Shown here piece by piece: positions 13,836 to 64,000 of a stretch of 64,000 bases of DNA. The first letter of the stretch is position 1. Each line of letters starts with the position of its first letter. The notes under the pieces are model-generated. The model worked only from the letters and a program-made list of their open reading frames with translations. It was not told the origin of the DNA and did not search any database. The DNA is from a bacterium. Lineage in GTDB: Bacteria > Oederibacteriota > Muellerivitia > Muellerivitales > Muellerivitaceae. The translations under genes and the position numbers were made by a program. Location of the stretch: assembly GCA_035549195.1 (NCBI GenBank), contig DASZRK010000080.1, forward strand, positions 100,376 to 164,375, given 5' to 3'.

Positions 13836-13879
13836 GCCACCGTTGAAACGACGCATTTGAACGCCCTTTGGGAGAAGGA

Positions 13880-26565: not shown

Positions 26566-26571
26566 TAAAAT
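26566..26571 (+). promoter_or_regulatory. -10-like box before cheA
   Basis: TAAAAT, followed at a suitable distance by AAAGGGGT and the ATG at 26597. No convincing -35 was found. The box overlaps an upstream in-frame ATG at 26570, which argues against that ATG being the start. Confidence 0.35.
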
Positions 26572-26596
26572 GGCCGAAGTCCTCAAAGGGGTCGGC

Positions 26597-28654
26597 ATGA
26601 ACACGTCGGATTACAAGGAACTGTTCCTTTCGGAGGCCAGGGAATACCTGTCGAACCTCAACAATTCCCTGGTCCAACTGGAGAAGGATCCGGCCCAGGG
26701 TGAACCGATCAAGGAGGTCTTTCGGTCCGCCCACACACTCAAGGGCATGGCGGCGACCATGGGATACGAACCCATGGTCCGATTGACCCATGAGATGGAA
26801 TCGGTCCTGGATCCGATCCGTTCCGGGAAGGAAGAGTTGAGCACCCGGCTCATGGATGCCCTTTTCCTCTGCCTGGATCAACTGGAAAAATGGGTGGATG
26901 CACTTTCCAGGCAGGATTTCATCGAGGAGGAGTCCCTGGAAGAGGCCATGAAAGTGCTTCGCCGGGGCGCTTCTGAAGGGGAGCCGGGACGCGCCGAGTC
27001 GGCCGCACCGTTGCCCGCCTTCCAGTTCTCGGCGGAAGAAACGGAGATCCTTTCGCAAGCCAAGAGGAACGGCTTTTCCATCTTGCAGGTGGCCGTCCAG
27101 CTGGTTCCGGAGTGTCAATTCAAGGAAGTCCGGGCCTTCATGGTCCTCAAAGCCATCAACGGCCTTGGGGAGATCGTCCATAGCGAACCTTCCCCCGAGG
27201 AGATCGAGAAAGGGCTTTTCAAGGACCGGTTCCTCCTGGTGGTCGTGACCGATTGCTCCGCCGAAAGGATCCGCGATGGCCTGACGGGCATCGGGGAAGT
27301 CGCTTCGGTCCGTATCGATGAATTCAAGATGGGGCCGACGGGAAAAAAAGAGCCAGCGACGGAACCGGGACACGCGTCCCCCTTGGCGGCGGAGAACGGA
27401 AAAGGCGATGTCGAGGAACGGTCCTCCTTGCTCCCGACGGTCCGCGTCCACACCACCAAACTGGATAAATTGATGGCACTGGTCCAGGAACTGGTCATTT
27501 CGAAGATCCGTTTCGAACAGATCGCATCGACCCAATCCTTGAAGGAATTGGACGGACCTCTCTCCCAACTCCATCACGTGACCGATGAGCTCCAGGACGA
27601 GATCATGAAGGTTCGTCTCATGCCGGTGAAACAGATATTCGACCGATTCCCGCGGATGGTCCGGGACCTGGCCAAAGGACTTGGAAAACAAGTCGATCTT
27701 GAGATGGACGGTGGGGAGGTCGAACTGGACAGGACGGTGCTCGAGGAAATGAGCGAACCTTTGGTCCATCTTCTCCGTAACGCCGTCGATCATGGCATCG
27801 AGGTCCCCGACTTCCGTGTCCAGGAAGGCAAAGAACCCATGGGGACCATCCGGCTCCAGGCACGTCGGGAAAGGGCTTATGTGGTCATCACCATTTCGGA
27901 CGATGGAAGGGGCATCGATCCGGACCAAGTACGCCAAAAATCGGTAGCCAAGGGCCTGCTGACCCCAGAGGATGCGGCCCGCCTGACCGATGAAGAATCC
28001 ATCCGGTTGATCGCCTTGCCGGGTTTTTCGACCCTGGACAACGCGACGCGCATTTCGGGGCGTGGGGTCGGAGTGGATGTGGCCAAGACCAAAGTGGAGG
28101 CCCTGGGAGGGACCCTGCGGATCCAAAGCAAGAAAAGTGTGGGGACCAGCTTTATCCTCCGGTTTCCGCTGACCTTGGCCATCATCAAGGCCCTGATGGT
28201 CCGCTGTGCCGGGGAGGTGTTCGCCGTTCCTGTCACCAACATCATCGAAACCCTGGATGTCCCATTGTCGGATAAGAAGGATATCCAGCAGCGACAGGCC
28301 CTGATCCTGCGGGAGGACGTGGTGCCCTACTATCCCTTGGCGGAACTCCTGGAAATGGAGGGAGACCCCGGGGACGACCCTTCGGGGCTGGAAACGGTCC
28401 TCATCGCCGAGGTCGGGGATTCCCGAGTGGGGTTGAAAGTGGACGAGGTGATCGGCCAGCAGGAGATCGCCATTAAGCCCATGGACCCGCTTTTGAAGGG
28501 GATCCGGGGTTTTTCGGGGGCCACGATCCTGGGGAATGGTAAGATAGCCCTGATCCTGGATGTGAACGGCTTGGTCGAGGATTTCAAAGATAAGCGCTTT
28601 CAGGTCGACCATAGTGACGTGGAAAAGGACCTTACCCATGCTCCCCAATCTTGA
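26597..28654 (+). CDS. cheA: chemotaxis histidine kinase CheA
   Basis: 685 residues. HPt domain at 1-110 with the phosphorylated His46 in FRSAHTLKGMA; a P2-like domain at about 140-245; dimerisation helices (LDKLMALVQELV); an ATPase domain with LLRNAVDHGIE, DDGRGID and GRGVGVDVAK; and a C-terminal CheW-like domain (AIIKALMVRCAGEVFAVPVTNI). ATG 26597 has AAAGGGGT upstream and gives the classic CheA N-terminus; ATG 26570 in frame overlaps a -10-like box. The stop overlaps the second cheC by 17 bases. Confidence 0.95.
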   Translation: MNTSDYKELFLSEAREYLSNLNNSLVQLEKDPAQGEPIKEVFRSAHTLKGMAATMGYEPMVRLTHEMESVLDPIRSGKEELSTRLMDALFLCLDQLEKWVDALSRQDFIEEESLEEAMKVLRRGASEGEPGRAESAAPLPAFQFSAEETEILSQAKRNGFSILQVAVQLVPECQFKEVRAFMVLKAINGLGEIVHSEPSPEEIEKGLFKDRFLLVVVTDCSAERIRDGLTGIGEVASVRIDEFKMGPTGKKEPATEPGHASPLAAENGKGDVEERSSLLPTVRVHTTKLDKLMALVQELVISKIRFEQIASTQSLKELDGPLSQLHHVTDELQDEIMKVRLMPVKQIFDRFPRMVRDLAKGLGKQVDLEMDGGEVELDRTVLEEMSEPLVHLLRNAVDHGIEVPDFRVQEGKEPMGTIRLQARRERAYVVITISDDGRGIDPDQVRQKSVAKGLLTPEDAARLTDEESIRLIALPGFSTLDNATRISGRGVGVDVAKTKVEALGGTLRIQSKKSVGTSFILRFPLTLAIIKALMVRCAGEVFAVPVTNIIETLDVPLSDKKDIQQRQALILREDVVPYYPLAELLEMEGDPGDDPSGLETVLIAEVGDSRVGLKVDEVIGQQEIAIKPMDPLLKGIRGFSGATILGNGKIALILDVNGLVEDFKDKRFQVDHSDVEKDLTHAPQS

Positions 28655-49267: not shown

Positions 49268-50356
49268 CTACTTGTTCTTCCAAAGGAGCATCAAGGGCGT
49301 GGCGGCCGCGAAGATCAGGTTGACCACCCAGACCGAAAGGAAGGGGCTGACGACCCCCGATTCCCCCAGGTGTTGTCCGATCTCCATCCCCCCGATGTAA
49401 ACAAGCCCCACGATCAGACAAATGGCGAATGAAAGGACGCCTCCGGTGTATTTCCGCATGGTCCAGCCCCAGGGTACTCCCAAAAGCGCGAGGATGACGC
49501 AACCGAAGGGCGAGGCGAATTTGTAGAAGAGATAGACCTCCTCCTTATGGACGTCCATGCCGTTCTTTCGCAACCGGCCGATGTAAGCGGAAAGTTCCTT
49601 GTAGTTCATTTGCTGCGCTTCGCGTTGTTCCTTCAGGAAGTCCCTGGGATCCTCCGGTAGGGCCAGGGAGAGCGTGTCGAAATTGGTCGAACCGATCTCG
49701 TCGTCGTTCCCGTCGAAAACGCGTTGGGTCCCGGTCCGGAAGATCCATTCCCCGTTCTCGTAACTTCCGCTCTTGGCATCCACTCGGGTCCGGATATGCC
49801 CGTCCGGCCCGAATTCCAGCATCAAAAAGTCGGCCAGGGTGTTCTGCGCCCCGTCGAAGGTGCCGATGTGGTAGAGCCGCCCATCGGCCCCCACCAAGGA
49901 AAGGTTCTGGCGGATCTTGTTGAAGGATGTCTCCGGTTGGTGCTTGATCCGGACGTCGCGGACCTGGGTCTTCAATTCTTCCGCCTTAGGGACGATGGTT
50001 TCATTGAAAAGAAGGGAAAAGGTCCCGATGAGGGCTCCCGCGAAAAGGAGGGGAAGGGCCACCGAAAGGATGTTCGCGCCCCCGGATCGCATGGCCATCA
50101 GCTCGTTGCCGCGGGAGAAGAGGCTGAGGGTGAAAAGGACCCCGAAGAGACAGGCCAGCGGCATGACCTGGACCAGGAAGGCGGGGAGGAAATAGGAAAA
50201 ATAGAGAAGGGCGGTCCCGAAGGGCGGTTTGAAGTCCCGCAGCAACTGCAGTTCCTGGAAGACCTGGGCCAGCAGGAAGATGACCCCAAATCCCCCGAGG
50301 GCCAGGAAAAAAGGCTTGAGGAATTCGGAAAGGATGTAACGGGGCAAGAGTCTCAT
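49268..50356 (-). CDS. lptG: LptF/LptG family permease (LptG-like)
   Basis: 362 residues, inner-membrane subunit of the LptB2FG lipopolysaccharide extractor. N-terminal helices (RYILSEFLKPFFLALGGFGVIFLLAQ), MPLACLFGVLFTLSLFSRGNELMAMRSGG (family block), a periplasmic beta-jellyroll domain at about 125-260, and three C-terminal helices. The ATG at 50356 overlaps the stop of the upstream gene as ATGA. LptF and LptG are similar, so which is which is assigned by order. Confidence 0.87.
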   Translation of the reverse strand: MRLLPRYILSEFLKPFFLALGGFGVIFLLAQVFQELQLLRDFKPPFGTALLYFSYFLPAFLVQVMPLACLFGVLFTLSLFSRGNELMAMRSGGANILSVALPLLFAGALIGTFSLLFNETIVPKAEELKTQVRDVRIKHQPETSFNKIRQNLSLVGADGRLYHIGTFDGAQNTLADFLMLEFGPDGHIRTRVDAKSGSYENGEWIFRTGTQRVFDGNDDEIGSTNFDTLSLALPEDPRDFLKEQREAQQMNYKELSAYIGRLRKNGMDVHKEEVYLFYKFASPFGCVILALLGVPWGWTMRKYTGGVLSFAICLIVGLVYIGGMEIGQHLGESGVVSPFLSVWVVNLIFAAATPLMLLWKNK

Positions 50357-51483
50357 TGTTTTCCGGTGGCCCGCCGCCTGAAGAGGGGGCGTTCGGTCAC
50401 GGCCAGGAAATAGACCAGGAAGCCGCCCGCTCCCAGGACCAGGTTGGCCCCCCAAAGCCCCAGGAACGGGGAAAGCCGCCCTTCGTTGCTCATGGTCTGG
50501 CCGAAGATGAACATCAGGTAATAGAGGAAGATGAGGATCAGGCCCAGGACGAAACCCATGAAACCCTTGGACCGGAGCCACAACCCCAAGGGGGCGCAAA
50601 ACCAGGGGAGGATCAGGCAGGCGAAGGGCAGGGCGAGCCTTTTCTGGAATTCGGCCCGTAGATGGTCGATCCGTTCGGGATCGGTCTCCGTTCCGATGGA
50701 ACGGCGGATCTCCGGGAGGTCCATTTCCTCATAATCCTTCTTCAGGTCGTTGCTGCCCGGGATCCGCCCTTCTAGTTTGAGACGGATGGTGTAGCGGTCG
50801 AAGAAAAGGCGGTTGTAGGTGTGGAAATTGCTGTTGGCCCAGGACATGACGCCGTCCCGCAGGTCGAAGAAAACCTGGTAATTCTTCTGGTCGGTGGAGA
50901 CCGAACCGGTCCTGGCCAAGGTGGTCTGGACCGTGGCCCCGGGTGCCCAATGATCGAAGACCTTGATGTCCGAAAGGGTACCGGAAGGGTCTTTGCGTCC
51001 GATGATGAATTGATGTCCCTCGAACTGGTCGATGAAAACATTCTCGCGGATGGCCACATCGGCCTTGTTCCGGACGATGTCGAATTCGGTCTTCTTGAAG
51101 AAGAACTTCGCCTCCGGCATGATCCGGTCGTTGAAAAAAAGCATCAGGGCCGTCATCCCGACCCCCAGGAACAGGATGGGAGCGATAAGGTGAAAGAGGT
51201 GGCCGCCGCCGCTTTTGAAGGCCGTGACCTCCATGTCGGAACTTAAACGTCCGAAGGAAAGCAGGGTCCCGACCATCATGGCCATGGGAATGGTCAGGGA
51301 AAGGATGAAGGGAAGGAGGCTCAAATAGAGGAATAGGGTCTGGCCCAGGGAGACCTTATTGCTGAGGACCAGGTCCAAATACAGGAAGACCTTGTTGACC
51401 ATGAACAGAAGGGTCAGGAGGGAGACGCTCAGGAGGAAGGATGGGAACATCTCCTTGAGGACGTAAGCGTGGATCGTTTTCAA
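50353..51483 (-). CDS. lptF: LptF/LptG family permease (LptF-like)
   Basis: 376 residues. Same architecture: two to three N-terminal helices, IPMAMMVGTLLSFGRLSSDMEVTAFKSGG, a periplasmic domain, and C-terminal helices (LPFACLILPWFCAPLGLWL). First gene of a two-gene - strand operon convergent with the lpx operon and divergent from the histidine kinase gene. LptA, B, C and D are not in the window. Confidence 0.87.
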   Translation of the reverse strand: MKTIHAYVLKEMFPSFLLSVSLLTLLFMVNKVFLYLDLVLSNKVSLGQTLFLYLSLLPFILSLTIPMAMMVGTLLSFGRLSSDMEVTAFKSGGGHLFHLIAPILFLGVGMTALMLFFNDRIMPEAKFFFKKTEFDIVRNKADVAIRENVFIDQFEGHQFIIGRKDPSGTLSDIKVFDHWAPGATVQTTLARTGSVSTDQKNYQVFFDLRDGVMSWANSNFHTYNRLFFDRYTIRLKLEGRIPGSNDLKKDYEEMDLPEIRRSIGTETDPERIDHLRAEFQKRLALPFACLILPWFCAPLGLWLRSKGFMGFVLGLILIFLYYLMFIFGQTMSNEGRLSPFLGLWGANLVLGAGGFLVYFLAVTERPLFRRRATGKQ

Positions 51484-51567: not shown

Positions 51568-51705
51568 ACATAGGCCAAACGCCCCTTTGGGCGCGCTTTT
51601 CGGCGGTTCGGGGCATGGTGCCGACCCCGTTCAAGCGGTTGGTCTATTCTTTAGGTGGTGAACCAGCCGGAACCCACTGTGGGGCCCGGAACGAACGGAA
51701 GTGGC

Positions 51706-52956
51706 ATGATCCAAACCTCGAAAAAGACCATTCCGATGGCACCGGTCCCCGGTGTCCTGACCGAAAAGCCGGTCGGCCGGGTCCCGTCGAACCGGACCTG
51801 GAAAGATCTGTTCGTCATCGATTTCGATCGTTCCTTTCTTTTGTCAAGCCTCAAGCTGCTTTTGGCGTTGAACCCCCTTTGGACCTTCGCGGTCTCCGCA
51901 TTCTTTGGGGGACATTCTTGGGCCTCGATCCTTTTTAGGTGGGGCTGGAACTTTCTGGAGGCCACCTTTGTTTGTTCCCTTGGATTGGTGGTCGCCTGGT
52001 TCTATCTGGTCCTGGAAAGGGCATGGGCGAAAAGGGTGGCCCGGACCCCTCCGCGCCACGGGACGGGTTGGTTCCTCCTTCTTTTGGCGTTCCTGGCGCC
52101 TCCCGGACTTTATCTGGCGCTTCGGATCATGGTCGCGGGTATCAATTTTTTCTATGAAGGGGACCCGATCGTCCCCCAGTTCAAATGGGAATATTACGGC
52201 CAAGAGATCTTTTGGGTCTGGACCCTTCTTTTGGTCTGCTTCGTCTTCAAGTCCTGGCTGGACCTGCGGGATACGGCCCAACACCATTTGTTAAGGGCGG
52301 AAGCCCTGGAGAAAGAGCGCTTGCGTGCCCTCCTGACACGGCTGCAGGACCAAATGAACCCCCATTTCCTTTTCAATACCCTCAACACGGTGGCGGCATT
52401 GATCTCCCAGGACCCGAAGAAGGCCGAGAAGATGGTGGTCAAGCTCTCGGGGCTCCTTCAAGGGGTCCTGGCCGCCGGACGGAAAACCCGGCATCCGCTC
52501 CGCCAGGAGCTGGATTTCTGCCGCGACTACCTGGAGATCGAACAAGCCCGGTTCGGCAAGCGGCTGAAGGTGACCTTCCGGGTCGAAAAGGAATTGGAGC
52601 TGGCCGCTCCCTTGGTCCCGGTGTTGATCCTCCAACCCTTGGTCGAGAATGCCGTGAAGCACGGTCTGTCCTCCAAGGCCAAAGGGGGGCAGATCTGGCT
52701 CTCCTGTGGGAAAGAGGCGGGTGGTTTGGTCATCCGGGTGGAGGATGACGGGGTGGGTCTCGGTAAGTCGCCTTACGCAGGGTCCGGGACCGCCTTGGAG
52801 AACGGGCGCAAACGATTGGCGCTCGAGTATGGGGAAGCAGGAAGCCTGAGGATCGGATCCCGGGATCCGGCCGGGACAGAGGTCGAGCTGCGCTTGCCTT
52901 TGGTCTACGATGAAAACACCCATGAGGGAGGCCGACATGCGGGTCCTGATCGTTGA
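51706..52956 (+). CDS. LytS/YehU-type sensor histidine kinase
   Basis: 416 residues with four hydrophobic helices in the first 190, then a kinase domain of the His_kinase family: QMNPHFLFNTLNTVAALI (phosphoacceptor His), LVPVLILQPLVENAVKHGL (N box) and VEDDGVGLG. It phosphorylates the partner regulator encoded next. ATG 51706 follows GGAAG at four bases and a possible -10 at 51645; GTG 51655 or 51658 would extend the protein by 16-17 residues. Overlaps the regulator gene by 20 bases. Confidence 0.88.
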   Translation: MIQTSKKTIPMAPVPGVLTEKPVGRVPSNRTWKDLFVIDFDRSFLLSSLKLLLALNPLWTFAVSAFFGGHSWASILFRWGWNFLEATFVCSLGLVVAWFYLVLERAWAKRVARTPPRHGTGWFLLLLAFLAPPGLYLALRIMVAGINFFYEGDPIVPQFKWEYYGQEIFWVWTLLLVCFVFKSWLDLRDTAQHHLLRAEALEKERLRALLTRLQDQMNPHFLFNTLNTVAALISQDPKKAEKMVVKLSGLLQGVLAAGRKTRHPLRQELDFCRDYLEIEQARFGKRLKVTFRVEKELELAAPLVPVLILQPLVENAVKHGLSSKAKGGQIWLSCGKEAGGLVIRVEDDGVGLGKSPYAGSGTALENGRKRLALEYGEAGSLRIGSRDPAGTEVELRLPLVYDENTHEGGRHAGPDR

Positions 52957-53683
52957 TGATGAAGCCCCGGCCCGGGGACGCTTGTCAAGGATGTTGGGCG
53001 AATTGAAGGACCTGAAGGTCGTAGGGGAGGCTTCCAATGGGGTGGAGGCCCTGCAGATGGCGGAGAAACTACAGCCCGAGGTCGTCTTCCTGGACATCGA
53101 GATGCCCGAGCTGAACGGGTTGGAGGTCGCCAAGACCTGGGGCGGTGACGGTCCGGCGGTGGTCTTCGTGACGGCTTACAGTGAACATGCCCTGAAGGCT
53201 TTCGAGCTTTCGGCCACCGATTACCTGGTCAAACCTGTCTCACCCGAGCGCCTCAAGGAAGCGGTGGAAAAGGTCCGCAAACGCAAATCGCCGCGATCCT
53301 TGGATCAGTTGCAAGGGTTGCTGGAAAAATGGGAGAAGGGACAGAACCCCCAACGCATGGCGGTCAAGACGGGCTCCAAGTACCGGGTCTTCGACCCATC
53401 CAGCATCTCGGCGGTCGTGGCGCGGGACCATTACGCCATCCTGTTGGTCGAAGGCCAGGAACTCCTGGCCGATGACAGCCTGGATATGCTGGAAAAACGC
53501 CTAGATGACAAGAAGTTCCTCCGCATTCACCGGAGCGCCATTGTTAACCTGGATTTTTTGAAGGAACTGGAACATGAAGGGGACCGTAAGTACCTGGCGG
53601 TCCTTTCGGATCCATTGAAGACGAAGCTCCCGGTCAGTCGGGAACGATTGGAGGAGCTTCGGAAGATCCTGGGATTGGAATGA
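52937..53683 (+). CDS. LytTR-family response regulator
   Basis: 248 residues: receiver domain (Asp7/Asp8, Asp53 in FLDIEMP, Thr in FVTAYSE, Lys in LVKPVSP), linker, and LytTR DNA-binding domain (KYRVFDPSSISAVVARDHYAILLVEG ... FLRIHRSAIVNLDFLKEL). ATG 52937 with GAGGGAG six bases upstream is preferred over ATG 52910. Directly upstream of the SprA-like gene, so it may control surface-protein genes. Confidence 0.92.
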   Translation: MRVLIVDDEAPARGRLSRMLGELKDLKVVGEASNGVEALQMAEKLQPEVVFLDIEMPELNGLEVAKTWGGDGPAVVFVTAYSEHALKAFELSATDYLVKPVSPERLKEAVEKVRKRKSPRSLDQLQGLLEKWEKGQNPQRMAVKTGSKYRVFDPSSISAVVARDHYAILLVEGQELLADDSLDMLEKRLDDKKFLRIHRSAIVNLDFLKELEHEGDRKYLAVLSDPLKTKLPVSRERLEELRKILGLE

Positions 53684-53716: not shown

Positions 53717-56700
53717 ATGAAACGACACCTATCCACCCTTAAACCCTTTTTGGCGTTCCTTTCCTGGATGCTTGTCCTCTCCTTCTTTTCACGGCTTGGG
53801 GCCGAGCCGACCCCGACGCCCGACCTGACCGTGAGTCCCGATGAAGAGATCCGGATCCTCGATGCGGTCGTAGGGACCTCCAAGACGCCTACGGCCGTTC
53901 CCAACGCGTCCACGACCTCGGAGGCCCAAGGCAACGGCCGCCCGGCCGTTCTTCCCGCCCGGCCACCCCTGGCGCCTACGGGACTTAAGGTCGAAGTGCT
54001 ACCGGATGGCGTCCATCTGACATGGGACAAGGCGTCCGCTTCTTCCCCCGTTTCCTTCTATACCGTCTATCGATCCCTCCTCCCGGGTTTCGGTTACAAG
54101 GCCCTGAACCCATCGCCGGTCCTTTTGAATTCTTTCCTGGACGGGGAAACGGAAAGTCCCACGCCCCCCAAGAACGGCAACGATTATTTCTATGTGGTGG
54201 CCGCCACGGATGCCCTGGGACGCCAGGGCCCCATGTCGGACGAAGTGAACGCATCGGCCGCGGGACTGGCCTTCGCCGCGGGAACCTCCGCTCCGGTGAC
54301 CTTGGGGGCCGAGGAGGGGGAGGAGGAGAAGACCCTGACCATCCCGGAACGGAACCTCGTCAATCTTCAACTTCCGGCCGATACCCAATTGTCCATCCAG
54401 GGTTACAAGAAGATCGACGCCCAGTTCTCTTTCCAACATTTCAACCGGGACGTCGTCAACGGCATCCCCAATGAGGTGGATACCACCCTGATCAACCAGG
54501 AATTGGTGGTTCAGCTCCAAGGTAAGGTTGGAAAGAACGTCGACGTGAACGTGGACTACAGCGACGTCAACCGGGCCGGGGGCGTGGATACAAGCAAACA
54601 GGATATCTCGATCAAATACCATGGGGACGAAGACAGCCCGGTCCAGGAAGTGGCCTTCGGCGACTTGCAGTTGCTGCTTCCCAATACCGAATTCGCCGGT
54701 TTCAGCAAACAGCTGTTCGGGCTCCAGACCAAACTGAAGTTCGACCAATTCCGTTTTACGGGTTTTTTCGCCCAGACGAAGGGCATCGCCGAGACGAAGG
54801 TGTTCAAAGGGAACTCCCTTCAGGTGGACAAGGTCATCCCGGACATCACCTATATCCCGCTCCGCTACTTCCTCATCACGCGCGCCTACACCGCTTACGT
54901 CGATCCGACCACCGGTCAAACGGTCAACGGTGCCTTGCCGGCCCCCAACAGTGAGCAGATCTGGGTGAATAGCGGGATCGGTACGATCAATCCGATCGGG
55001 CCCAACTTTGGGGGTCCAAACAATGCCTATGAGCACTGGCTCCCGGGCCGTGACTACACCATCGATTACAACACGGGGGTCATCACCTTCACCCGCGCCC
55101 TTTCTTTTTCCGCCCAGATCGCGGTGGGTTATACGTCCCGGACAGGTCAGGTGATCGCTTTGACGGGTTCGGGAGCATCACAGACATTGGATTTCACATC
55201 GGGATTGAAGGTGCCGGACGATGGGAATATCTCCAATGCGGCCCACATGATCAAGGACAACAATAACGGGACCGGGATCTCATCGCCCAATGCCATCGCC
55301 ATGAGCCCACTTTATCTCCCGAATTATTACGACCTGGGCCGGGATAAGATCGTTCCGCCGGACCAGGATCCGGATTTCCTTTTCCAGGTCATCTCCCAGG
55401 GAAGTAATAACATCCTGCAAACGGGCCAGGGGGTTTCCCAGGTCGGCGCGGCCAATCCCTGGGTCTACAACGTGGACCTGGACCTGAACGTCTTGACCGT
55501 CCTGAACGCCAATTTCATCACCGCCCTCGCTCCAAGCGCCCCTTCCTCGTTCCTGTGGCCGGAACGGCCCTTCGCCAACCTGGACCTTTTCGGAGGGGCC
55601 AATTCGGCGGCGAACCCGTCCGATGTCTACAGCCAAACCGTCCCCCCGACGAGCCTCTATTCGCTGCATATTCGCTACAAGACCCAATTGAATTTCTTCC
55701 AATTAGGGCGCTTTAACATCATCCGGGGGAGCGAATCCGTTTACCTCGACGGCCGACGTCTCCGCCGGGACGTGGATTATTTCTTCGACTACACCTCCGG
55801 GTTCCTGGACTTCCCGGATAAGAGCATCCTGCGGCCTGACAGCCAAGTGGTGGTCAGTTATGAATATTCGCCCTTCGGGGCCTTCAACCAGAACAACATC
55901 ATCGGGGCCCGGGCCGAATATGACCTGACGGACCACTTCTTCTTGGGGTCCACCTTTTTGGAAAGCGATGCCCAACAACCGCAGGACGTTCCGCAGATCG
56001 GTTCGACTCCGAATTCACTTTCACTGTTCGATGCGGATGCCCGCTACGACATGACCCCGGACGAACTACAAAGCATCTTCGGGATCATCCCCGGGCTCGA
56101 AAATTGGAAGCCGCCCTTTTCCTTGAAGCTCTCGGCCGAGGTGGCTCAGAGCTATTTCAATCCGGATACCTACAACGCTGAAGGGGAACAAGGGGTGGCG
56201 TTGATCGACAACATGGAAGGGATTGACAATGCCACCAACGCCTCCACCAACTCGACCTCGTGGCTTGTTTCGTCACCGCCCCAAGCGGTCGGTTTTTTGG
56301 GGAGCGTCCAATACGGTGCCGGATCGAATGCCTCGAACAACCGGATCCGCTTTTACAACAACGGGGCCCCGAATTCCCATTCGGTGATCTTCCAGACGAT
56401 CGGCCAAAAGGACAATTCGGGCCAAAGTTTCGGTGATGTGCCGGGTTATGGGGGCCACGTCTATGCCACCACCAACAACCCAAATGACTTCGTTTCGGTC
56501 CTCCAATTCCCCTATTCAGGCTTGACCAACCAACGTTGGGGTGGGCTTCGCCAGGTCCTTTCGGTGAACGGAACGGATCTTTCAAACGCCGCTTTCCTCC
56601 AGGCCTGGGTCTATAACGATGGGAACCCCAAGTGGATCATGATCGATTTCGGGATCGTCAGCGAGAATACAAACGGGAATTTGACCAGCGTGCCGAATGC

Positions 56701-59599
56701 CGATCCAAATCTGGGGACTTCCAAGACGGCCTCAGTCACATTTGGCATCCCATCCTTTTATTACTCGAATCCAGCCGTGACGGTCATCACACAGCCGGGA
56801 GAAACCACGACCCAAGAAGGGGTCAGCATTGGGACGGGGACCAATTACGTTACGCAAGACATGAACGCGGACAACGTCCTCGAATCGAGCGACAATTATT
56901 ATGAGTATGGTATCCAGGCCAATTGGTCGGGCTGGAAACAGATCAAGATCCCGATCAACTACTCCGCGGCACCGGGAATGCAATCCACGGCGGATTTCAA
57001 TTATTTCTTCAATACGGTCGGCTTACCGAACCCGAGCATCATCCGGGCCATCCGTTTTTGGATGGCGGGCGCCACGGCTTCGCCGGCCAGCGGGGATGTT
57101 TACGTGGAAAACCTGGGATTCGCCCACAATCTCTGGCAGCTCCAGGTCGATCCGACGGCCAATGTGAACCAAGGGGTCACGGTGAACACCTCGAAATTCG
57201 ACGTCACTTCCATCAGCCAGGACCAGGACAAGAGCTACGTCCCAACTTTGCGGTTCGTGAACATCCAAGCGGGACAGGATTCGAGCGCGATCGAATTCAA
57301 GGAGAAGGCCTTGAAACTGACCTATAACCTTTCTTCCACCGATATGGAGCCCCCAGGGGACCTTTCGGGACTGCCCATTTATTACGCCAGCCGGACCTAT
57401 AGCCAAGGCCTGGACCTGACCGATTTCGAGGAACTCCATTTCGATCTTCAGATCCGGTCCTATCAGCCGGGAGAGGTGCTTTTCGTCCGTTTGGGGAACG
57501 ATCAACAGAACTACTTCCAATACAACGTTCAATTGAACGAGGCGAGCAAGTCGAGCCTTTACTCCTGGGGGTCGGTCGGATTTCCCTTGGACGGCTCCCA
57601 AGGGAACCGGAAACAGGTGGGGAATCCCTTCTTGAACCGCATTACCCAGATCAGTTTCGGGGTCATCTCCCCCAACGGGCCCAATTCGAACATCGGGACC
57701 CTGTGGATCAACAACCTGCGCGGGGTCCGCGCCAATGTCCGTGCCGGCGTCGCCCGAAGGGCCAATGCCGCCCTGACCCTGGGGGATAATTTCGCCACGG
57801 TGAACGCCCGCTATCGTGAAGTGGATTCGGGGTTCACCCAGATCGACCAGACCACGACCCACTTCCAGCATTCGCGTCAGGTCGGGATGGACTACGCCTC
57901 CAGCGGGGTCTCGGTCTTTTCCCAACCCATCGTCCAGCAGTTCTCCGTCACCCGGCAGGACCTTTTCACCGAGGAGGCCTTGGCGAACAACCCATATTTC
58001 CTGACCCTGCCCAATTCGAGGATCGATACGGCGACGGGAAGCCTGTCCTACAGTAAGGACCTGGGGCCTGGCTGGGGAAGGATCACGACCTTCCGGTTGT
58101 CGGGAAGTTCCAATCTGGAGGACGACATCTACCAGCCCTATTACCTGTCCCAACCGGGGGTGCTAGGCAATGTCCACAAGGGGCAATTGATCGGGACGGC
58201 CAATGCGACCTACGATGCCCCGCCCGACCTCTTTTTCATCCCCTGGGGCGCCAACCAGTTCACGGGATCCTATTCGATCACCAAGGATACCCAAACCTTC
58301 GACAACCCCATTTACGCCCCCTATGAACGGCACACGCGGACCCAGACCTATGGCTGGACCAATACCACGGAGCTGGTGAAGAACCTGGTCTTCACGCCGG
58401 GGTTCACCTATTCCTTGACCGATGCGGTGGGCAACACCAATGCCCCGGGTGTGCCCGTGTCCTTGGCGTCGGCCGTCCCTCAATTCACGAACTTCCAGGA
58501 ACGCTACCAGCCCAAGGCCGGGCTGGTCTATCGGGGCATTCCCGGCGCCATCCCGTCCGTGGACTATTCGGGCAGCAACCAATACGATTACGTGTCCTTC
58601 TCCGACGGCCGGCGGTTCAACAACGCCAACAACCTGAATTACTCATTGAACCTGACCCCGGGGACTTGGTGGGATCCCTTCCAGAAAATGAACCTGACCA
58701 TTTTCGCGGGACGGACCGAGAGCGGAACGGCCTCGATCCCGGCCTTCAACCGGCAAAGAACGCTGACCTTCGAGGAGCAGTGGCTGACCACGCCCGCATT
58801 CGACATCGCCTTGAACGGGACCCGCTCCGTCGCCCATCAATTGAATGGGAGCTTCCGGCTTTTCGATGTCTGGGATTTCCGGCCCACGGGCACTTGGACC
58901 GATCAATTGAGCCTCCTGGCCCAAGGCACCAATCCGGTCAAGCAAGTGGGGGATACCTATGGACTGACCACGGTCTATAACCGGAAGATCGCCACCATCC
59001 CTTACATCGAGTTCAGCCTGGATTCGGCCCAGCTGCAATACACCCATTCGGACAGCACCCAATACGACAGTTCGCTGCCGCCGGACAAGGTCACCTCGGC
59101 GAACATCTCGAACCAGACCCAAAGCGAAACCTATGGTTTGACGCTGCCCTACGACATCGACCAAAAGGCCCAAGGGAACATCCGGTTCCAAAGGACGACG
59201 GGGACCCAATTCGGGCTCTCCACCACGAACACCCTGACGACCCAATTGGAGGACCAGGGCTCCATCGAATATACCCAGAAATTCGCCCCGAACCTGGAGA
59301 TCCACGTGCCCTTCACCCACTGGAAGCTCAAATTGCAGGACGCCATCGAATTCAGGGCCACCTTGCTCATGGATTTCGTGAACAACCAATCGGCCTATGT
59401 CTACAACCAAAGGCAGACCCAGCGTTACCGGGGGACGATCGACCTCAACTACAATGCCCTCAAGAATCTGAGGGTGGGCATTGGCTTGGTGAACGAGTAT
59501 TTCTACGATACGACCTATCAACTGTCGAACAGCACCCCTGACCACACGAAGGACTATTCCTTATGGCAGGGGACCATCTCCGCGGAGGCACGTTTCTGA
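53717..59599 (+). CDS. giant outer-membrane protein of the SprA type with N-terminal FN3 domain
   Basis: 1960 residues. Signal peptide (about 1-29), Pro/Thr-rich stretch, then an FN3 domain (about 85-175: PTGLKVEVLPDGVHLTW ... YTVYRS ... YFYVVAATDALG). From about residue 220 the chain resembles SprA, the very large outer-membrane channel of type IX secretion and gliding: VDVNVDYSD, FGDLQLLLPNTEFAGFSKQLFG and LQTKLKFDQFRFTGFFAQTKG, GRDYTIDYNTGVITF, and VYLDGRRLRRDVDYFFDY. The C-terminal half is rich in alternating aromatic/beta strands, ending ISAEARF with a terminal Phe, as outer-membrane barrels do. It is shorter than Flavobacterium SprA (about 2400). Homology is judged by motif reading only. 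Confidence 0.7.
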   Translation: MKRHLSTLKPFLAFLSWMLVLSFFSRLGAEPTPTPDLTVSPDEEIRILDAVVGTSKTPTAVPNASTTSEAQGNGRPAVLPARPPLAPTGLKVEVLPDGVHLTWDKASASSPVSFYTVYRSLLPGFGYKALNPSPVLLNSFLDGETESPTPPKNGNDYFYVVAATDALGRQGPMSDEVNASAAGLAFAAGTSAPVTLGAEEGEEEKTLTIPERNLVNLQLPADTQLSIQGYKKIDAQFSFQHFNRDVVNGIPNEVDTTLINQELVVQLQGKVGKNVDVNVDYSDVNRAGGVDTSKQDISIKYHGDEDSPVQEVAFGDLQLLLPNTEFAGFSKQLFGLQTKLKFDQFRFTGFFAQTKGIAETKVFKGNSLQVDKVIPDITYIPLRYFLITRAYTAYVDPTTGQTVNGALPAPNSEQIWVNSGIGTINPIGPNFGGPNNAYEHWLPGRDYTIDYNTGVITFTRALSFSAQIAVGYTSRTGQVIALTGSGASQTLDFTSGLKVPDDGNISNAAHMIKDNNNGTGISSPNAIAMSPLYLPNYYDLGRDKIVPPDQDPDFLFQVISQGSNNILQTGQGVSQVGAANPWVYNVDLDLNVLTVLNANFITALAPSAPSSFLWPERPFANLDLFGGANSAANPSDVYSQTVPPTSLYSLHIRYKTQLNFFQLGRFNIIRGSESVYLDGRRLRRDVDYFFDYTSGFLDFPDKSILRPDSQVVVSYEYSPFGAFNQNNIIGARAEYDLTDHFFLGSTFLESDAQQPQDVPQIGSTPNSLSLFDADARYDMTPDELQSIFGIIPGLENWKPPFSLKLSAEVAQSYFNPDTYNAEGEQGVALIDNMEGIDNATNASTNSTSWLVSSPPQAVGFLGSVQYGAGSNASNNRIRFYNNGAPNSHSVIFQTIGQKDNSGQSFGDVPGYGGHVYATTNNPNDFVSVLQFPYSGLTNQRWGGLRQVLSVNGTDLSNAAFLQAWVYNDGNPKWIMIDFGIVSENTNGNLTSVPNADPNLGTSKTASVTFGIPSFYYSNPAVTVITQPGETTTQEGVSIGTGTNYVTQDMNADNVLESSDNYYEYGIQANWSGWKQIKIPINYSAAPGMQSTADFNYFFNTVGLPNPSIIRAIRFWMAGATASPASGDVYVENLGFAHNLWQLQVDPTANVNQGVTVNTSKFDVTSISQDQDKSYVPTLRFVNIQAGQDSSAIEFKEKALKLTYNLSSTDMEPPGDLSGLPIYYASRTYSQGLDLTDFEELHFDLQIRSYQPGEVLFVRLGNDQQNYFQYNVQLNEASKSSLYSWGSVGFPLDGSQGNRKQVGNPFLNRITQISFGVISPNGPNSNIGTLWINNLRGVRANVRAGVARRANAALTLGDNFATVNARYREVDSGFTQIDQTTTHFQHSRQVGMDYASSGVSVFSQPIVQQFSVTRQDLFTEEALANNPYFLTLPNSRIDTATGSLSYSKDLGPGWGRITTFRLSGSSNLEDDIYQPYYLSQPGVLGNVHKGQLIGTANATYDAPPDLFFIPWGANQFTGSYSITKDTQTFDNPIYAPYERHTRTQTYGWTNTTELVKNLVFTPGFTYSLTDAVGNTNAPGVPVSLASAVPQFTNFQERYQPKAGLVYRGIPGAIPSVDYSGSNQYDYVSFSDGRRFNNANNLNYSLNLTPGTWWDPFQKMNLTIFAGRTESGTASIPAFNRQRTLTFEEQWLTTPAFDIALNGTRSVAHQLNGSFRLFDVWDFRPTGTWTDQLSLLAQGTNPVKQVGDTYGLTTVYNRKIATIPYIEFSLDSAQLQYTHSDSTQYDSSLPPDKVTSANISNQTQSETYGLTLPYDIDQKAQGNIRFQRTTGTQFGLSTTNTLTTQLEDQGSIEYTQKFAPNLEIHVPFTHWKLKLQDAIEFRATLLMDFVNNQSAYVYNQRQTQRYRGTIDLNYNALKNLRVGIGLVNEYFYDTTYQLSNSTPDHTKDYSLWQGTISAEARF

Positions 59600-59602
59600 C
59601 CC

Positions 59603-62600
59603 ATGAATGATCACGGCTTCCGTACTCTCGGCGTTTTCGCTTTCTTTTTGGTCTCCTACGGGGCCGGGTGGCTCCATGCCGCGCCACCGACCCCTTCGGC
59701 CTTGACCAGCGGTACGCCCGTCGCTGGACGGGTGGACCTCGACTGGGCCCCGGACTCGGCCGCCACCCCCGCTGTCACCGGGTATGTGGTCTACCGCCAA
59801 CTCCAGGATACCCAAACGCCAACGGGCACTCCGTTCCCGACCGCAACCCCGGTGGCGGTGGGAACGGTCCTGATGAGCGCCATTCCAAGTCCGGGAACCC
59901 CTGTCTTGACCGATTCCCAAGTCACCAATGGGAGGGTCTACCTCTATCAAGTGGCAGGAGTGGACGGAAATGGGGAAGGGTCGCCGGCCACGGTCCTGGC
60001 CTATCCTTATTCCGTGCCCAGCGCGATCTATCCGGTCACGGTCAAGAACATCCATAACCGTGCCCTGGATCTGGCCTGGAAGGTCCCGGATGCCAGTTTC
60101 CCGGTCTCTTATTACCAAGTCTTCCGCTTTGGTTTGACGACCCAGACGCCGACCCCGACAGGAACAAGGACGGTTACGGCCATCCCAATGGCCACCATGA
60201 CCGTCATCGCGACCCCGATCGGGACCACCAGTGCCAATTCCTTCGGGGATGCGGGGGCCGACCCTTCGGCGGCGATCGCCTATTACTATTACGTGATGGC
60301 CTTCGACGTGGCCGGGAACCGCAGCGCCTTCCCGCCCTTCTCCACGGATCCGGGCGTCCCGGTATCGATGGGATTACCGGGCCCGGTGACCGTCAACGCG
60401 TCCATTTCATTGTCACCTTTCGGGATGAACATCCTTTGGAACGGCTCCCTTGCCTCGGAGCAGGTGAGCGCTTATCAGGTGGTGCGCGATGGGACGCCCA
60501 TCGCCACGGTCGTTTATGCCCCTGGGACCCCGACGGTGACCTATTTGGACAATACGGTCCAAGAATCCAAGTTCGGGGTGGTCTATGGCGTCCAAGCGGT
60601 CAATCCCAATGGAACCACCAGTTCCGATCCGGTGACCCAATACTTGATCCCGGCCACAGGGGGAAGCGTCACGGTGACCCCGAGCCTATCAGGTACGGCA
60701 GTGACCGTTTCATGGGCACCGGCCTTGGCGGGCAACCTGGGCGTGGCGGGGTACCGGATCTATAAAGGACCTTGGGGGCCGCCGACGGTCAATCCGACGC
60801 CGGGGGCGACCCAAACACCCACCCCCACGGCATTCGCGACAGTGGCCTTCAGTCCCTCGGCCTCCTGGACCCTGACCCCGGTCGTGGATAGTTCGTTGCA
60901 GGACCACACCGGGTACTGGGTCCAGCCCGTGGATGGGGGAGGCCAAGGGGGATCCATCGGGATCCCCTCTCCGCCCTATTTCCAACTGGCCCCGACGCCA
61001 CCGACCAATCTTCAAGTGGCCCAGGCCTCTTCCGGGAACAATGCCTTCGACCTGACCTGGAACAGCGGGAACCCTGGTTTTTATGGGACTCCCGACCACT
61101 ATGCCCTTTATCGGAGCGTTCGAACGGTGGTCTTGACCCAGACACCGACCGGGACCGTGAGCCCGACGGCGACGCCCGTACTGGTCGCTACGGTGCCCTA
61201 TGGCCAGAATTCAACGTCGGATGTGGTTTCCAATTTCTCCCAAGGGAGCACGGTGGTCTATCAGTTGGGTCTGGTGGATCCCCAAGGCAACCTTTCCGAT
61301 CTCTTGACGGCTTCCAACGCGGTGACCCTGGGTGGGTCGGTGAACCCTCCCGTGGCCCCGTCCGTCCTGCCTTTCGCGGGGTCGGACCAGTCCATTCGAT
61401 ATTCCTGGCTCCTCAACCCGGGGGCGGATGCAGTGACGGCTTACCGGATCTACGGGAACGATTGGGCGCCGGGATCCTCGGTCACGCCGGTGGCGATCCT
61501 GACGAACCCATCCTCCACGCCGACCTTCGCGCCCACGCCTAGTCCCTGGGTGCCGAACGTTTTCTTCGTTGTGGCGCAGAACGCCATCTCGACATCGGCC
61601 CCGGCGACCCTGGCGGGCCTACCGGTGGGGAACTATACGGTCTCGGCCGTCGTGCCGGTGGGCACCCAGGCCGTTTCCCTGACCTGGAATTCCTTGCCTC
61701 CGCCCAGCGTGACTCCTGGCATCACGGGTTACCGGATCTATCGATCCTTGGCTTCGACTTCAGGTTTTACATCGGTCGCAACGGTGCCCTATCCCGTTCC
61801 GGGATATGAGGATGTGCCCCCGGTGGCGACGGCCGGTGTGACCTATTATTACCGGGTCGTGGCATCGGGACCAAATGGGGCGGAAAGTCCTCTCCTTCCA
61901 GACCTCACGCCTGACCCATATGCGAATGTTCAGGTCTGGCCTAATCCTCCTTCCGGGGTCACGGTCCAATCCATGGTCGCCCAAACCGGTCTCGGATGGT
62001 CCCCGAACCCGGCCGGAGAGAATGTCCTGTCCTATGTGGTCTATCGCAATGGCACCCCGACGATGACCGTTACCCCGAGCCCCCCCCTTTCCCTGGTCTT
62101 TTCCGAATCGGCCGGTGATCTTTCGGTCTATCAAGTGGCCGCCTTGAACCCATCGGGGTCCGGGAACCTTTCCCAACCCATTTCGGTCCTGGTTCCTCCT
62201 GCGATGACCCCGACCATCGAATGGACCCCACCCCCGACCGTGACCCCGGACCCCACTCCGGCTGTTTGGATCTCGGGCCTCACTTATGGAGGTGGTGTCC
62301 ATGGTTACGATATTTACCGTCAAGTTACGGTGACCGGGACCCCGTCCCTGATCGGTAATGTTCCGTCGCCGAATTCCTACTTCGAGGATCCCGATCCAAT
62401 ACCGGGTTTCATCAACCGATACCAGGTCGTGGCCAATAATGGATCGGGATTTGGTTCGGAACCTTCCATTTCGGCCGCCTTGGCCGTGACCCTTTGGCCG
62501 GCAAAACCTGTCTTTTCGGCCAATGGCGGTTCCGCCGGGATGACCCTGGATTGGGATGCTCCGGCGGGGGATGCGCCTGTCACATCCTGGGATATCTACC

Positions 62601-64000
62601 GGTCGGTCTATCCGACCACCACCCCGACCTTCATTGCTACCGTGGTGGGGGGCGGACAGACCTTCGTCGATCCGGACGTCACGCCGGGGGCGGCTTATGT
62701 TTATCAAATGAACGGCCAGAATGCTTCAGGGGCCGGTGTTCCCAGCGCCCCAGGGACCGCCTTGGCCGTCGATCCGCCGGTGTTGGCCGTGACACCTTTG
62801 GCCGATAAGAATTTTTTGGTCTGGACCGTTTTGACGCCACCGCCGGGAAGCCCTGTGAGCGGTTACAGCATCTATCGTGCCTTGCCAAGCCCGACCCCGC
62901 AATTCAATGTATTGGCGCCGCTGGTGGAACCCCTGACCAATACCGGTTATGTCGATACGGTGACGAACGGTTCGACCTACCTTTATAAGGTGGCAGGCAG
63001 TTCGACCAACGGCATCCTCGGCGGATTCTCCAATGTGGTGACCCAATTCGCAGCCCTTCAACCGGTCTCCATCCTCACGGCCGTCTCCGGGGACCGGTTG
63101 GTCCAACTGCGCTGGAACTATCAGGGGGTCAACACCATCACCTATACCCTCCAAAAGAAGCTGGGGACGGCGCCGGACGGCGATTTCCAAACGGTCCGCT
63201 CGGGACTGACCGGGACCAATTACGTGGACAGTGATGTGGCGGACAAGGAATTTTACGTCTATCGCCTTTATTCCGTGGATGCGGGGGGCAACACTTCGAC
63301 CTCTTGCGCCACGGCCCTGGCTTTGCCGGCCAAACCGCCAGTCGTGAACGACCGGTCGGTGAGCCTTTCCCAGAACACCACGAACCTCCAAACGCTGATC
63401 GGGAACAGCCTGAGCTGGAAAGGAGCCGATCAAGCGCCCAACTACGACCCTGCATCCATGTATCCCTTGGGTGGCTATACCCTTTCCCGCTCGACCGATG
63501 GGGGAGGGGTCTATCAAGTGTTGGCGACCCTTCCCGTGACCCTGGTGAACGGGGTCCCGGCGTCCACGGTCACCTATTTTGACGAGGTACCCCTGGTGAA
63601 CGGCAGCACCAATACCTACCTGGTCCAGGCCTTCGATGCGCCCCCTGACCTGCCGGTCCCACTGGCCCAGGCGGTGACCGAGGGATGGGTCCATACGACG
63701 TCCTACGATCCTGTGGTCGCCCATTCGATCACGCCGAATACCGCGCTGGACCGGAACGCCATCCGTCCCTTCGGGGCCTCCAACGAACAGGTCGTGAACA
63801 TCCGTTTCGTGGTGTCGAACCAAGGCCATGTGACCATCAAGGTCTATAACTTGGGCGGGACCTATATCACGCAGCTGGTCGACGCCGACTATTCACCGGG
63901 GATCTATTGGGCCAGTTGGGATGCCCACAACCGGTTCGGGGCCTTGGTGGCTTCGGGCGTTTACCTGATCACGACCGAATCGCCCGGTCACCAGGAATTC
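59603..64000 (+). CDS. exported multi-FN3 protein with Thr-Pro inserts, 3' end outside window
   Basis: The frame is open from ATG 59603 to the right edge, at least 1466 residues. Signal peptide (about 1-26, ending WLHA), then about twelve fibronectin type III modules recognisable by L/VxW near the start and Y.VYR or Y.IYR in strand C. Most modules carry a Thr-Pro-rich insert right after that strand. Near the right edge is VTIKVYNLGGTYITQLVDADYSPGIYWASWDAHN followed by GVYLI, a FlgD-like Ig / type-A sorting domain often found at the C-terminus of type IX cargo. It follows the SprA-like gene by three bases, so probably shares its transcript. Likely a secreted or surface adhesin. Confidence 0.8.
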   Translation, partial: MNDHGFRTLGVFAFFLVSYGAGWLHAAPPTPSALTSGTPVAGRVDLDWAPDSAATPAVTGYVVYRQLQDTQTPTGTPFPTATPVAVGTVLMSAIPSPGTPVLTDSQVTNGRVYLYQVAGVDGNGEGSPATVLAYPYSVPSAIYPVTVKNIHNRALDLAWKVPDASFPVSYYQVFRFGLTTQTPTPTGTRTVTAIPMATMTVIATPIGTTSANSFGDAGADPSAAIAYYYYVMAFDVAGNRSAFPPFSTDPGVPVSMGLPGPVTVNASISLSPFGMNILWNGSLASEQVSAYQVVRDGTPIATVVYAPGTPTVTYLDNTVQESKFGVVYGVQAVNPNGTTSSDPVTQYLIPATGGSVTVTPSLSGTAVTVSWAPALAGNLGVAGYRIYKGPWGPPTVNPTPGATQTPTPTAFATVAFSPSASWTLTPVVDSSLQDHTGYWVQPVDGGGQGGSIGIPSPPYFQLAPTPPTNLQVAQASSGNNAFDLTWNSGNPGFYGTPDHYALYRSVRTVVLTQTPTGTVSPTATPVLVATVPYGQNSTSDVVSNFSQGSTVVYQLGLVDPQGNLSDLLTASNAVTLGGSVNPPVAPSVLPFAGSDQSIRYSWLLNPGADAVTAYRIYGNDWAPGSSVTPVAILTNPSSTPTFAPTPSPWVPNVFFVVAQNAISTSAPATLAGLPVGNYTVSAVVPVGTQAVSLTWNSLPPPSVTPGITGYRIYRSLASTSGFTSVATVPYPVPGYEDVPPVATAGVTYYYRVVASGPNGAESPLLPDLTPDPYANVQVWPNPPSGVTVQSMVAQTGLGWSPNPAGENVLSYVVYRNGTPTMTVTPSPPLSLVFSESAGDLSVYQVAALNPSGSGNLSQPISVLVPPAMTPTIEWTPPPTVTPDPTPAVWISGLTYGGGVHGYDIYRQVTVTGTPSLIGNVPSPNSYFEDPDPIPGFINRYQVVANNGSGFGSEPSISAALAVTLWPAKPVFSANGGSAGMTLDWDAPAGDAPVTSWDIYRSVYPTTTPTFIATVVGGGQTFVDPDVTPGAAYVYQMNGQNASGAGVPSAPGTALAVDPPVLAVTPLADKNFLVWTVLTPPPGSPVSGYSIYRALPSPTPQFNVLAPLVEPLTNTGYVDTVTNGSTYLYKVAGSSTNGILGGFSNVVTQFAALQPVSILTAVSGDRLVQLRWNYQGVNTITYTLQKKLGTAPDGDFQTVRSGLTGTNYVDSDVADKEFYVYRLYSVDAGGNTSTSCATALALPAKPPVVNDRSVSLSQNTTNLQTLIGNSLSWKGADQAPNYDPASMYPLGGYTLSRSTDGGGVYQVLATLPVTLVNGVPASTVTYFDEVPLVNGSTNTYLVQAFDAPPDLPVPLAQAVTEGWVHTTSYDPVVAHSITPNTALDRNAIRPFGASNEQVVNIRFVVSNQGHVTIKVYNLGGTYITQLVDADYSPGIYWASWDAHNRFGALVASGVYLITTESPGHQEF

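Follow-up and report, generated by a model that had tools for sequence, protein, structure and literature searches.

The window, the whole 64,000-nucleotide stretch of DNA analysed here, lies on contig C80 of a 3.2 Mb genome (G000) that is assembled in 80 contigs and is 97.86% complete. A gene for an outer-membrane translocon of the SprA type is located toward its 3′ end, preceded by a two-component pair and by divergent permease genes and followed by a gene that runs over the edge of the window. The features, in window coordinates, are as follows.

49268–50353, minus strand: LptF/LptG-type permease (PF03739, 274 bits)
50353–51483, minus strand: LptF/LptG-type permease, the divergent neighbour kept beside SprA (homology to a Pfam-confirmed neighbour)
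51655–52956, plus strand: histidine kinase (PF06580) overlapping the regulator gene (Pfam, locus comparison)
52910–53683, plus strand: response regulator with LytTR domain, ending 34 bases before SprA (Pfam, locus comparison)
53717–59599, plus strand: SprA-type outer-membrane translocon, 1960 aa (TIGR04189, orthologue profile, predicted-fold matches)
53717–53803, plus strand: signal-peptide-like N-terminus, about residues 1–29 (hydrophobic stretch read by eye from the translation)
53975–54241, plus strand: FN3-like module, residues 87–175 (Pfam fn3, orthologue profile, iterated profile)
54359–59596, plus strand: SprA core, residues 215–1960, homologous throughout the phylum
59603–64000, plus strand: N-terminal part of a 1473-aa FN3-repeat protein, whose gene runs on to position 164399 of contig C80

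The SprA-type open reading frame starts with ATG and is a single intact frame. Its product matched the NCBIfam model TIGR04189 (T9SS outer membrane translocon Sov/SprA) over five stretches with 227.4 bits (E 2.4e-67), above the curated equivalog cut-off of 200 bits, and this equivalog model, not Pfam SprA_N, is the defining test of the family. SprA_N itself remained below threshold on this protein (19.8 bits against a cut-off of 27) and matched 2 of 14 SprA relatives at E 0.01. When the PDB was searched with the single sequence, two weak FN3-type matches were returned and nothing more; the profile of 14 SprA orthologues from the phylum matched the F. johnsoniae SprA structure 6h3i at E 9.4e-49. 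The homology of residues 215 to about 1376 reaches Elusimicrobiota as well. The whole SprA barrel has 36 strands, and we modelled two overlapping parts of the protein with AlphaFold, residues 205–1400 (pLDDT 74) and residues 761–1960 (pLDDT 80.5); the alignments given for these parts held 48 and 34 of the 53 prepared rows, respectively. For both models the four best PDB matches were the SprA chains 8gl6, 8gl8, 6h3i and 6h3j (E 1e-48 to 3e-31), and the next-best matches were only at about 1e-5. The TM-scores against the SprA chains were modest (0.35–0.44 by query length) and the rmsd values were large, as may be expected for models of pieces of one barrel. We regard the identity of this protein as secure: it adds a member to the SprA family. 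The first-pass annotation, which had proposed a SprA-like channel of 1960 residues and a search with SprA family profiles, is thus upheld by the TIGR04189 score and by the SprA chains as best folds, while the SprA_N profile that it named stays sub-threshold.

The same annotation had placed an FN3 module after the signal peptide, and this module is weak in the protein alone but clear with its relatives. Pfam fn3 did not reach its cut-off on this SprA (14.9 against 25 bits), whereas the profile of 14 SprA proteins of the phylum matched FN3 chains in the PDB (e.g. chitinase A1, E 1.4e-5) and Pfam fn3 is present in 5 of the 14 members. Starting from the module of this protein, we built an iterated profile and counted FN3 copies in 20 rows, comprising this SprA and 19 relatives (L030 was left out of the 20 fetched): one copy was found in nine rows, three copies in eight and none in three. 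As the phylum carries zero, one or three copies, the module is a lineage-variable N-terminal extension and reflects no special event in this gene. Its position makes a role in binding cargo or a partner at the periplasmic mouth of the channel plausible.

The named SprA loci nearest to this one belong to FCPU426, whose group also takes in Goldiibacteriota and Firestonebacteria, and those of Elusimicrobiota follow; the organism therefore groups with the candidate division FCPU426/Goldiibacteriota/Firestonebacteria, in agreement with the first-pass view that the lineage is not typical of Bacteroidetes. The available part of PMC7031533 treats the FCPU426 cluster as Goldbacteria. One row titled Proteobacteria (L039) was placed by the tree among FCPU426 and is taken as a mislabelled bin. 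SprA matches were obtained in 34 of the 39 genomes of the phylum and in 23 of the 24 good ones, with 24–28% identity between the families of the phylum. A search of the genome contigs with the single SprA sequence returned no relatives, and the alignment-based search returned 78 loci. In a 53-row SprA tree, the split between FCPU426, Goldiibacteriota and Firestonebacteria on one side and the Elusimicrobiota side on the other was fully supported; the tree was built by a quick method, contained no Bacteroidota rows and does not bear on the root.

We compared the gene neighbourhoods of 39 SprA loci, 21 from the phylum and 18 chosen by hand from the Elusimicrobiota side. The histidine kinase and the LytTR regulator precede SprA in all seven loci of the window's family. 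Divergent lptF/lptG genes lie beside SprA in 23 of the 39 loci (12/21 in the phylum and 11/18 on the Elusimicrobiota side) and comF lies downstream in 19, both counts being lower bounds because some loci end at contig ends. Since conservation of the divergent lptFG neighbours extends to Elusimicrobiota, SprA looks old in the lineage, not recently acquired. Recent transfer from Bacteroidota was considered and set aside, being unsupported by synteny or by the tree, the latter without Bacteroidota rows. The protein encoded directly 3′ of SprA has a C-terminus resembling FlgD and the type IX sorting domain, and a homologous end is encoded at the same position in 11 of the 21 loci of the phylum, this one included; on the sorting-domain model TIGR04183 the FN3-repeat protein remained below cut-off (14.8 against 23 bits).

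The recurrence of lptFG next to SprA, together with the fact that LptD was not found in the window's genome, could also mean that the SprA barrel now serves the export of lipopolysaccharide or lipid alongside LptF/LptG. We consider this very improbable. LptD-like matches occur in 7 of the 39 genomes and all seven hold SprA too, so that SprA does not simply replace LptD there, and the cargo-carrier gene pairs described below fit protein export.

Several other genes in the window and on its contig were noted. A single open frame at 13868–16183 of the window encodes both a T2SSE-type ATPase domain and an extensive TPR region, and 26570–28654 encodes a CheA-type chemotaxis kinase. Flagellar-looking genes were seen by eye in L154 (C80:54000–72000), on the same contig as SprA; from these and the CheA-type kinase, the organism probably swims.

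The PorV family (NF033709) was found above cut-off in all 39 genomes of the phylum and in all 21 genomes of the Elusimicrobiota side, the latter chosen because they hold SprA. The window's genome gave 28 PorV/PorQ-family matches, which we merged by hand into 23 genes where pieces share one frame, 13 of them above the family cut-off. Among the putative carriers scanned, the specific PorV and PorQ cut-offs were not reached, and those matched by both specific models had the higher score on PorQ.

Many of these proteins are longer than a carrier barrel. At least 110 residues extend beyond the matched barrel domain in 15 of the 23 (for the C48 carrier the barrel match is partial and the tail length overestimated, with TPR repeats at its end). 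TPR repeats were found in the carriers encoded on C18, C23, C59, C45 and C48 and by both C36 genes, and FN3 domains in those of C17, C31 and C80:63015; FlgD_ig and OmpA domains follow the barrel in C76:17763 and C63, and FlgD_ig, OmpA and TPR in C24, while the tails of C73 and C80:60974 gave domain matches of the barrel type only. The C-terminus of the PorV barrel is periplasmic, and the tails should therefore face the periplasm. Twin-cysteine tails like those of SprF/PorG, as given in the accessible text of PMC12635249, were discarded as a description of these extensions: no Cys-X-Cys pair occurs in 22 of the PorV-family proteins, the C24 gene being excluded.

Two carrier genes have unusual architectures. 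The gene on contig C24 (L157:5910–7919, minus strand) encodes a 670-aa protein that joins a PorV-family barrel to an FlgD-type Ig domain, OmpA and TPR, and it lies directly downstream of a sorting-domain match. In another genome, a single frame of 1024 residues (G023:C49:227461–229572) contains two PorV-family matches and is perhaps a fused carrier pair.

Candidate cargo is similarly abundant. The sorting-domain model TIGR04183 matched 51 times at E ≤ 0.1 in the window's genome, the FN3-repeat protein next to SprA not among them, and 31 and 49 times in the genomes G004 and G014, respectively; 20 of the 51 matches were above cut-off. In the control genomes, 6 of 14 gave a match at E ≤ 0.1 and one of these was above cut-off. 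A TIGR04183 match lies directly upstream on the same strand of 9 of the 23 PorV-family genes in the window's genome, with 0.10 expected, and ends 105–324 bases before the PorV domain in these nine pairs. Four further cargo-carrier pairs (L153, L155, L156 and L164), outside this count, were recognized by eye and with a regular expression. Tails are present in 11 of the 13 paired carriers, including these four, as compared with 4 of the 10 others; the C5 gene is cut by the contig end. One of the paired cargo proteins is a serine protease of the S8 type (L161). An additional gene (L158:5220–6083) encodes an N-terminus that by eye resembles an anti-sigma factor and an Ig-like end of the FlgD/sorting-domain type; it is located two genes before a PorV-family gene.

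The same arrangement was found in the two other genomes. A PorV-family gene follows on the same strand, at −4 to +86 bases, 7 of the best 20 of 49 sorting-domain matches in G014 and 3 of the best 20 of 31 in G004; none of 20 arbitrary stretches, hand-picked at round coordinates and all from G014, held a PorV-family gene. Five tailed paired carriers from G014 and G004 were scanned, and TPR repeats were found in four of them (below cut-off in L200) and none in L183. As 13/20 matches in G014 and 17/20 in G004 are unpaired, most sorting-domain genes have no adjoining PorV gene.

The sorting domain resembles FlgD_ig, and these Ig-like C-terminal domains might instead be FlgD-like modules of surface or periplasmic proteins that serve as no export tag, with SprA and the PorV family handling other cargo. 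The C-termini indeed score as FlgD-like, the unpaired majority of sorting-domain genes fits such modules, and FlgD_ig also occurs inside the OmpA-tailed carriers, so not every such Ig domain is an export tag. Nevertheless, 20 matches in this genome exceed the cut-off of the T9SS model for type A sorting, and the pairing with PorV-family genes greatly exceeds the chance expectation in one genome and was also seen in two more. This explanation therefore appears improbable to us.

Further components of a type IX system were sought with profiles for the motor and ring proteins GldL, GldM and GldN in the 39 genomes of the phylum. GldN matched in none of them, this genome included. GldM was above cut-off in none and gave weak matches in two genomes (E 0.01–0.06); GldL was likewise above cut-off in none and weak in 18 of the 39. 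Because 9 of the 14 control genomes also gave weak GldL matches, we regard these as noise, and GldM too gave only noise-level matches in the controls. As the controls included no genome with an established type IX motor, the three absences are strong hints rather than proof. Peptidase_C25 is the core of the PorU sortase; it was not found in this genome and was found in 4 of the 39 (G009, G019, G023 and G037; L170–L173), where the proteins may be PorU-like or plain cargo. The PorP/SprF family was above cut-off in none of the 39 genomes and weak in 18, with no match in this one. In three genomes of one family, weak PorP/SprF-family matches lie 5 to 9 kb from SprA on the same contig:

G024, contig C90, 39222–40097: weak PorP/SprF-family match
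G036, contig C49, 13209–13979: weak PorP/SprF-family match
G038, contig C162, 15532–16428: weak PorP/SprF-family match

Because searches of this genome turned up neither GldL, GldM or GldN nor a peptidase of the PorU type, the system departs from a standard T9SS. The type IX-like secretion suggested by the first-pass annotation is retained in part: the genome is rich in PorV-family carriers and in cargo with sorting domains, so the other type IX components are not all absent, while the motor and ring proteins and the PorU-type peptidase were not recovered.

A complete conventional type IX system, whose motor, ring and linker are now too divergent for Bacteroidota profiles to detect, would account for these negative searches. 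SprA itself is divergent between the families of the phylum and falls below the SprA_N cut-off, the motor profiles were run with no control genome in which a motor is established, and there are weak matches to GldM in two genomes and to the PorP/SprF family on the SprA contig in three genomes of one family. The available sections of PMC10994853 describe that in F. johnsoniae cargo passes from SprA to the carrier via a lateral opening and that release of carrier and cargo needs energy from the GldLM motor, and a motor required for release in Bacteroidota argues for one here as well. However, the three motor and ring profiles were above cut-off in 0 of 39 genomes, while the SprA, PorV-family and sorting-domain profiles do give matches, and by eye no motor-like gene recurs beside SprA among the gene families present in at least 4 of the 39 loci. 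A diverged motor is a possibility that we rate as rather unlikely; it is a more cautious reading than a system with no motor at all.

We consider it reasonably likely that this SprA is the translocon of a type IX-like system that is reduced and rewired and whose PorV-family carriers are dedicated and tailed. Cargo proteins, each ending in an Ig-like sorting domain, would cross the inner membrane by means of a signal peptide. From the periplasm they would move into the SprA barrel, to be handed across the lateral opening to a carrier barrel of the PorV/PorQ family. Many cargo genes are followed directly by a PorV-family gene of their own, and the products of most of these carrier genes bear C-terminal TPR, FN3 or OmpA tails, presumably on the periplasmic side. 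By analogy with PorP/SprF for type B cargo in Flavobacterium, the carrier probably remains with its cargo as a surface anchor. Since this system seems to lack the GldLMN part of the drive as well as the PorU sortase, release of carrier and cargo would be driven another way.

One form of this idea is a type IX system that has no motor, in which cargo-specific PorV-family carriers, perhaps used only once, pull cargo out of SprA in place of a proton-driven ring. TPR arms or OmpA peptidoglycan anchors would capture and hold the loaded carrier after it leaves the channel, so that the supply of fresh dedicated carriers and their tethering would replace the motor and drive the exchange. The core of SprA, PorV and sorting domain would then predate the motorised version of Bacteroidota, be more widespread than it and be shared with Elusimicrobiota. 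We advance this tentatively and hold it to be doubtful.

The reduced, rewired system can be set against known ones. As in the SprA/Sov and PorV system of F. johnsoniae and Porphyromonas gingivalis (6h3i, 6h3j, 8gl6 and 8gl8), which supplies both the equivalog and the best fold matches, the genome has PorV-family carriers and type A-like sorting domains. The protein differs from known SprA in its length (1960 versus 2403 residues), its N-terminal FN3 module and its lineage, and the system differs in that searches did not recover GldL, GldM, GldN or a peptidase of the PorU type and in its 23 PorV-family genes, many of them paired with cargo and tailed. SprE/PorW is a TPR protein and the PorE-like proteins are OmpA proteins of type IX systems. 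Here, TPR and OmpA domains would likewise lie below the outer membrane near the carriers, but they form part of the same polypeptide as the carrier barrel. According to the accessible parts of PMC12618676 and PMC12635249, type B cargo of F. johnsoniae has a PorP/SprF carrier encoded directly downstream, whereas type A cargo shares PorV. The carrier genes in this genome resemble the type B arrangement in lying directly downstream of the cargo, presumably with one-to-one pairing and surface anchoring; the differences are that the carriers belong to the PorV/PorQ family, that the cargo has a type A-like end and that the genome gave no PorP/SprF-family match.

Type IX secretion is described as confined to Bacteroidetes (PMC4793230) or Bacteroidota (PMC10994853), or to the Bacteroidetes-Chlorobi-Fibrobacteres group (PMC12421860, PMC11205867), in the portions available of these sources. 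Among the matches listed in the open-licence literature, no report of a type IX system in Elusimicrobia, Goldbacteria, Firestonebacteria or FCPU426 was found. What is new here is the same channel, carrier family and sorting signal with motor and sortase not found and with carriers that are dedicated and tailed. If this reading is true, a SprA-PorV system without recognisable motor in two further groups would uncouple the channel from its engine, reveal which part of the type IX system is ancestral and provide a natural test of what drives release.
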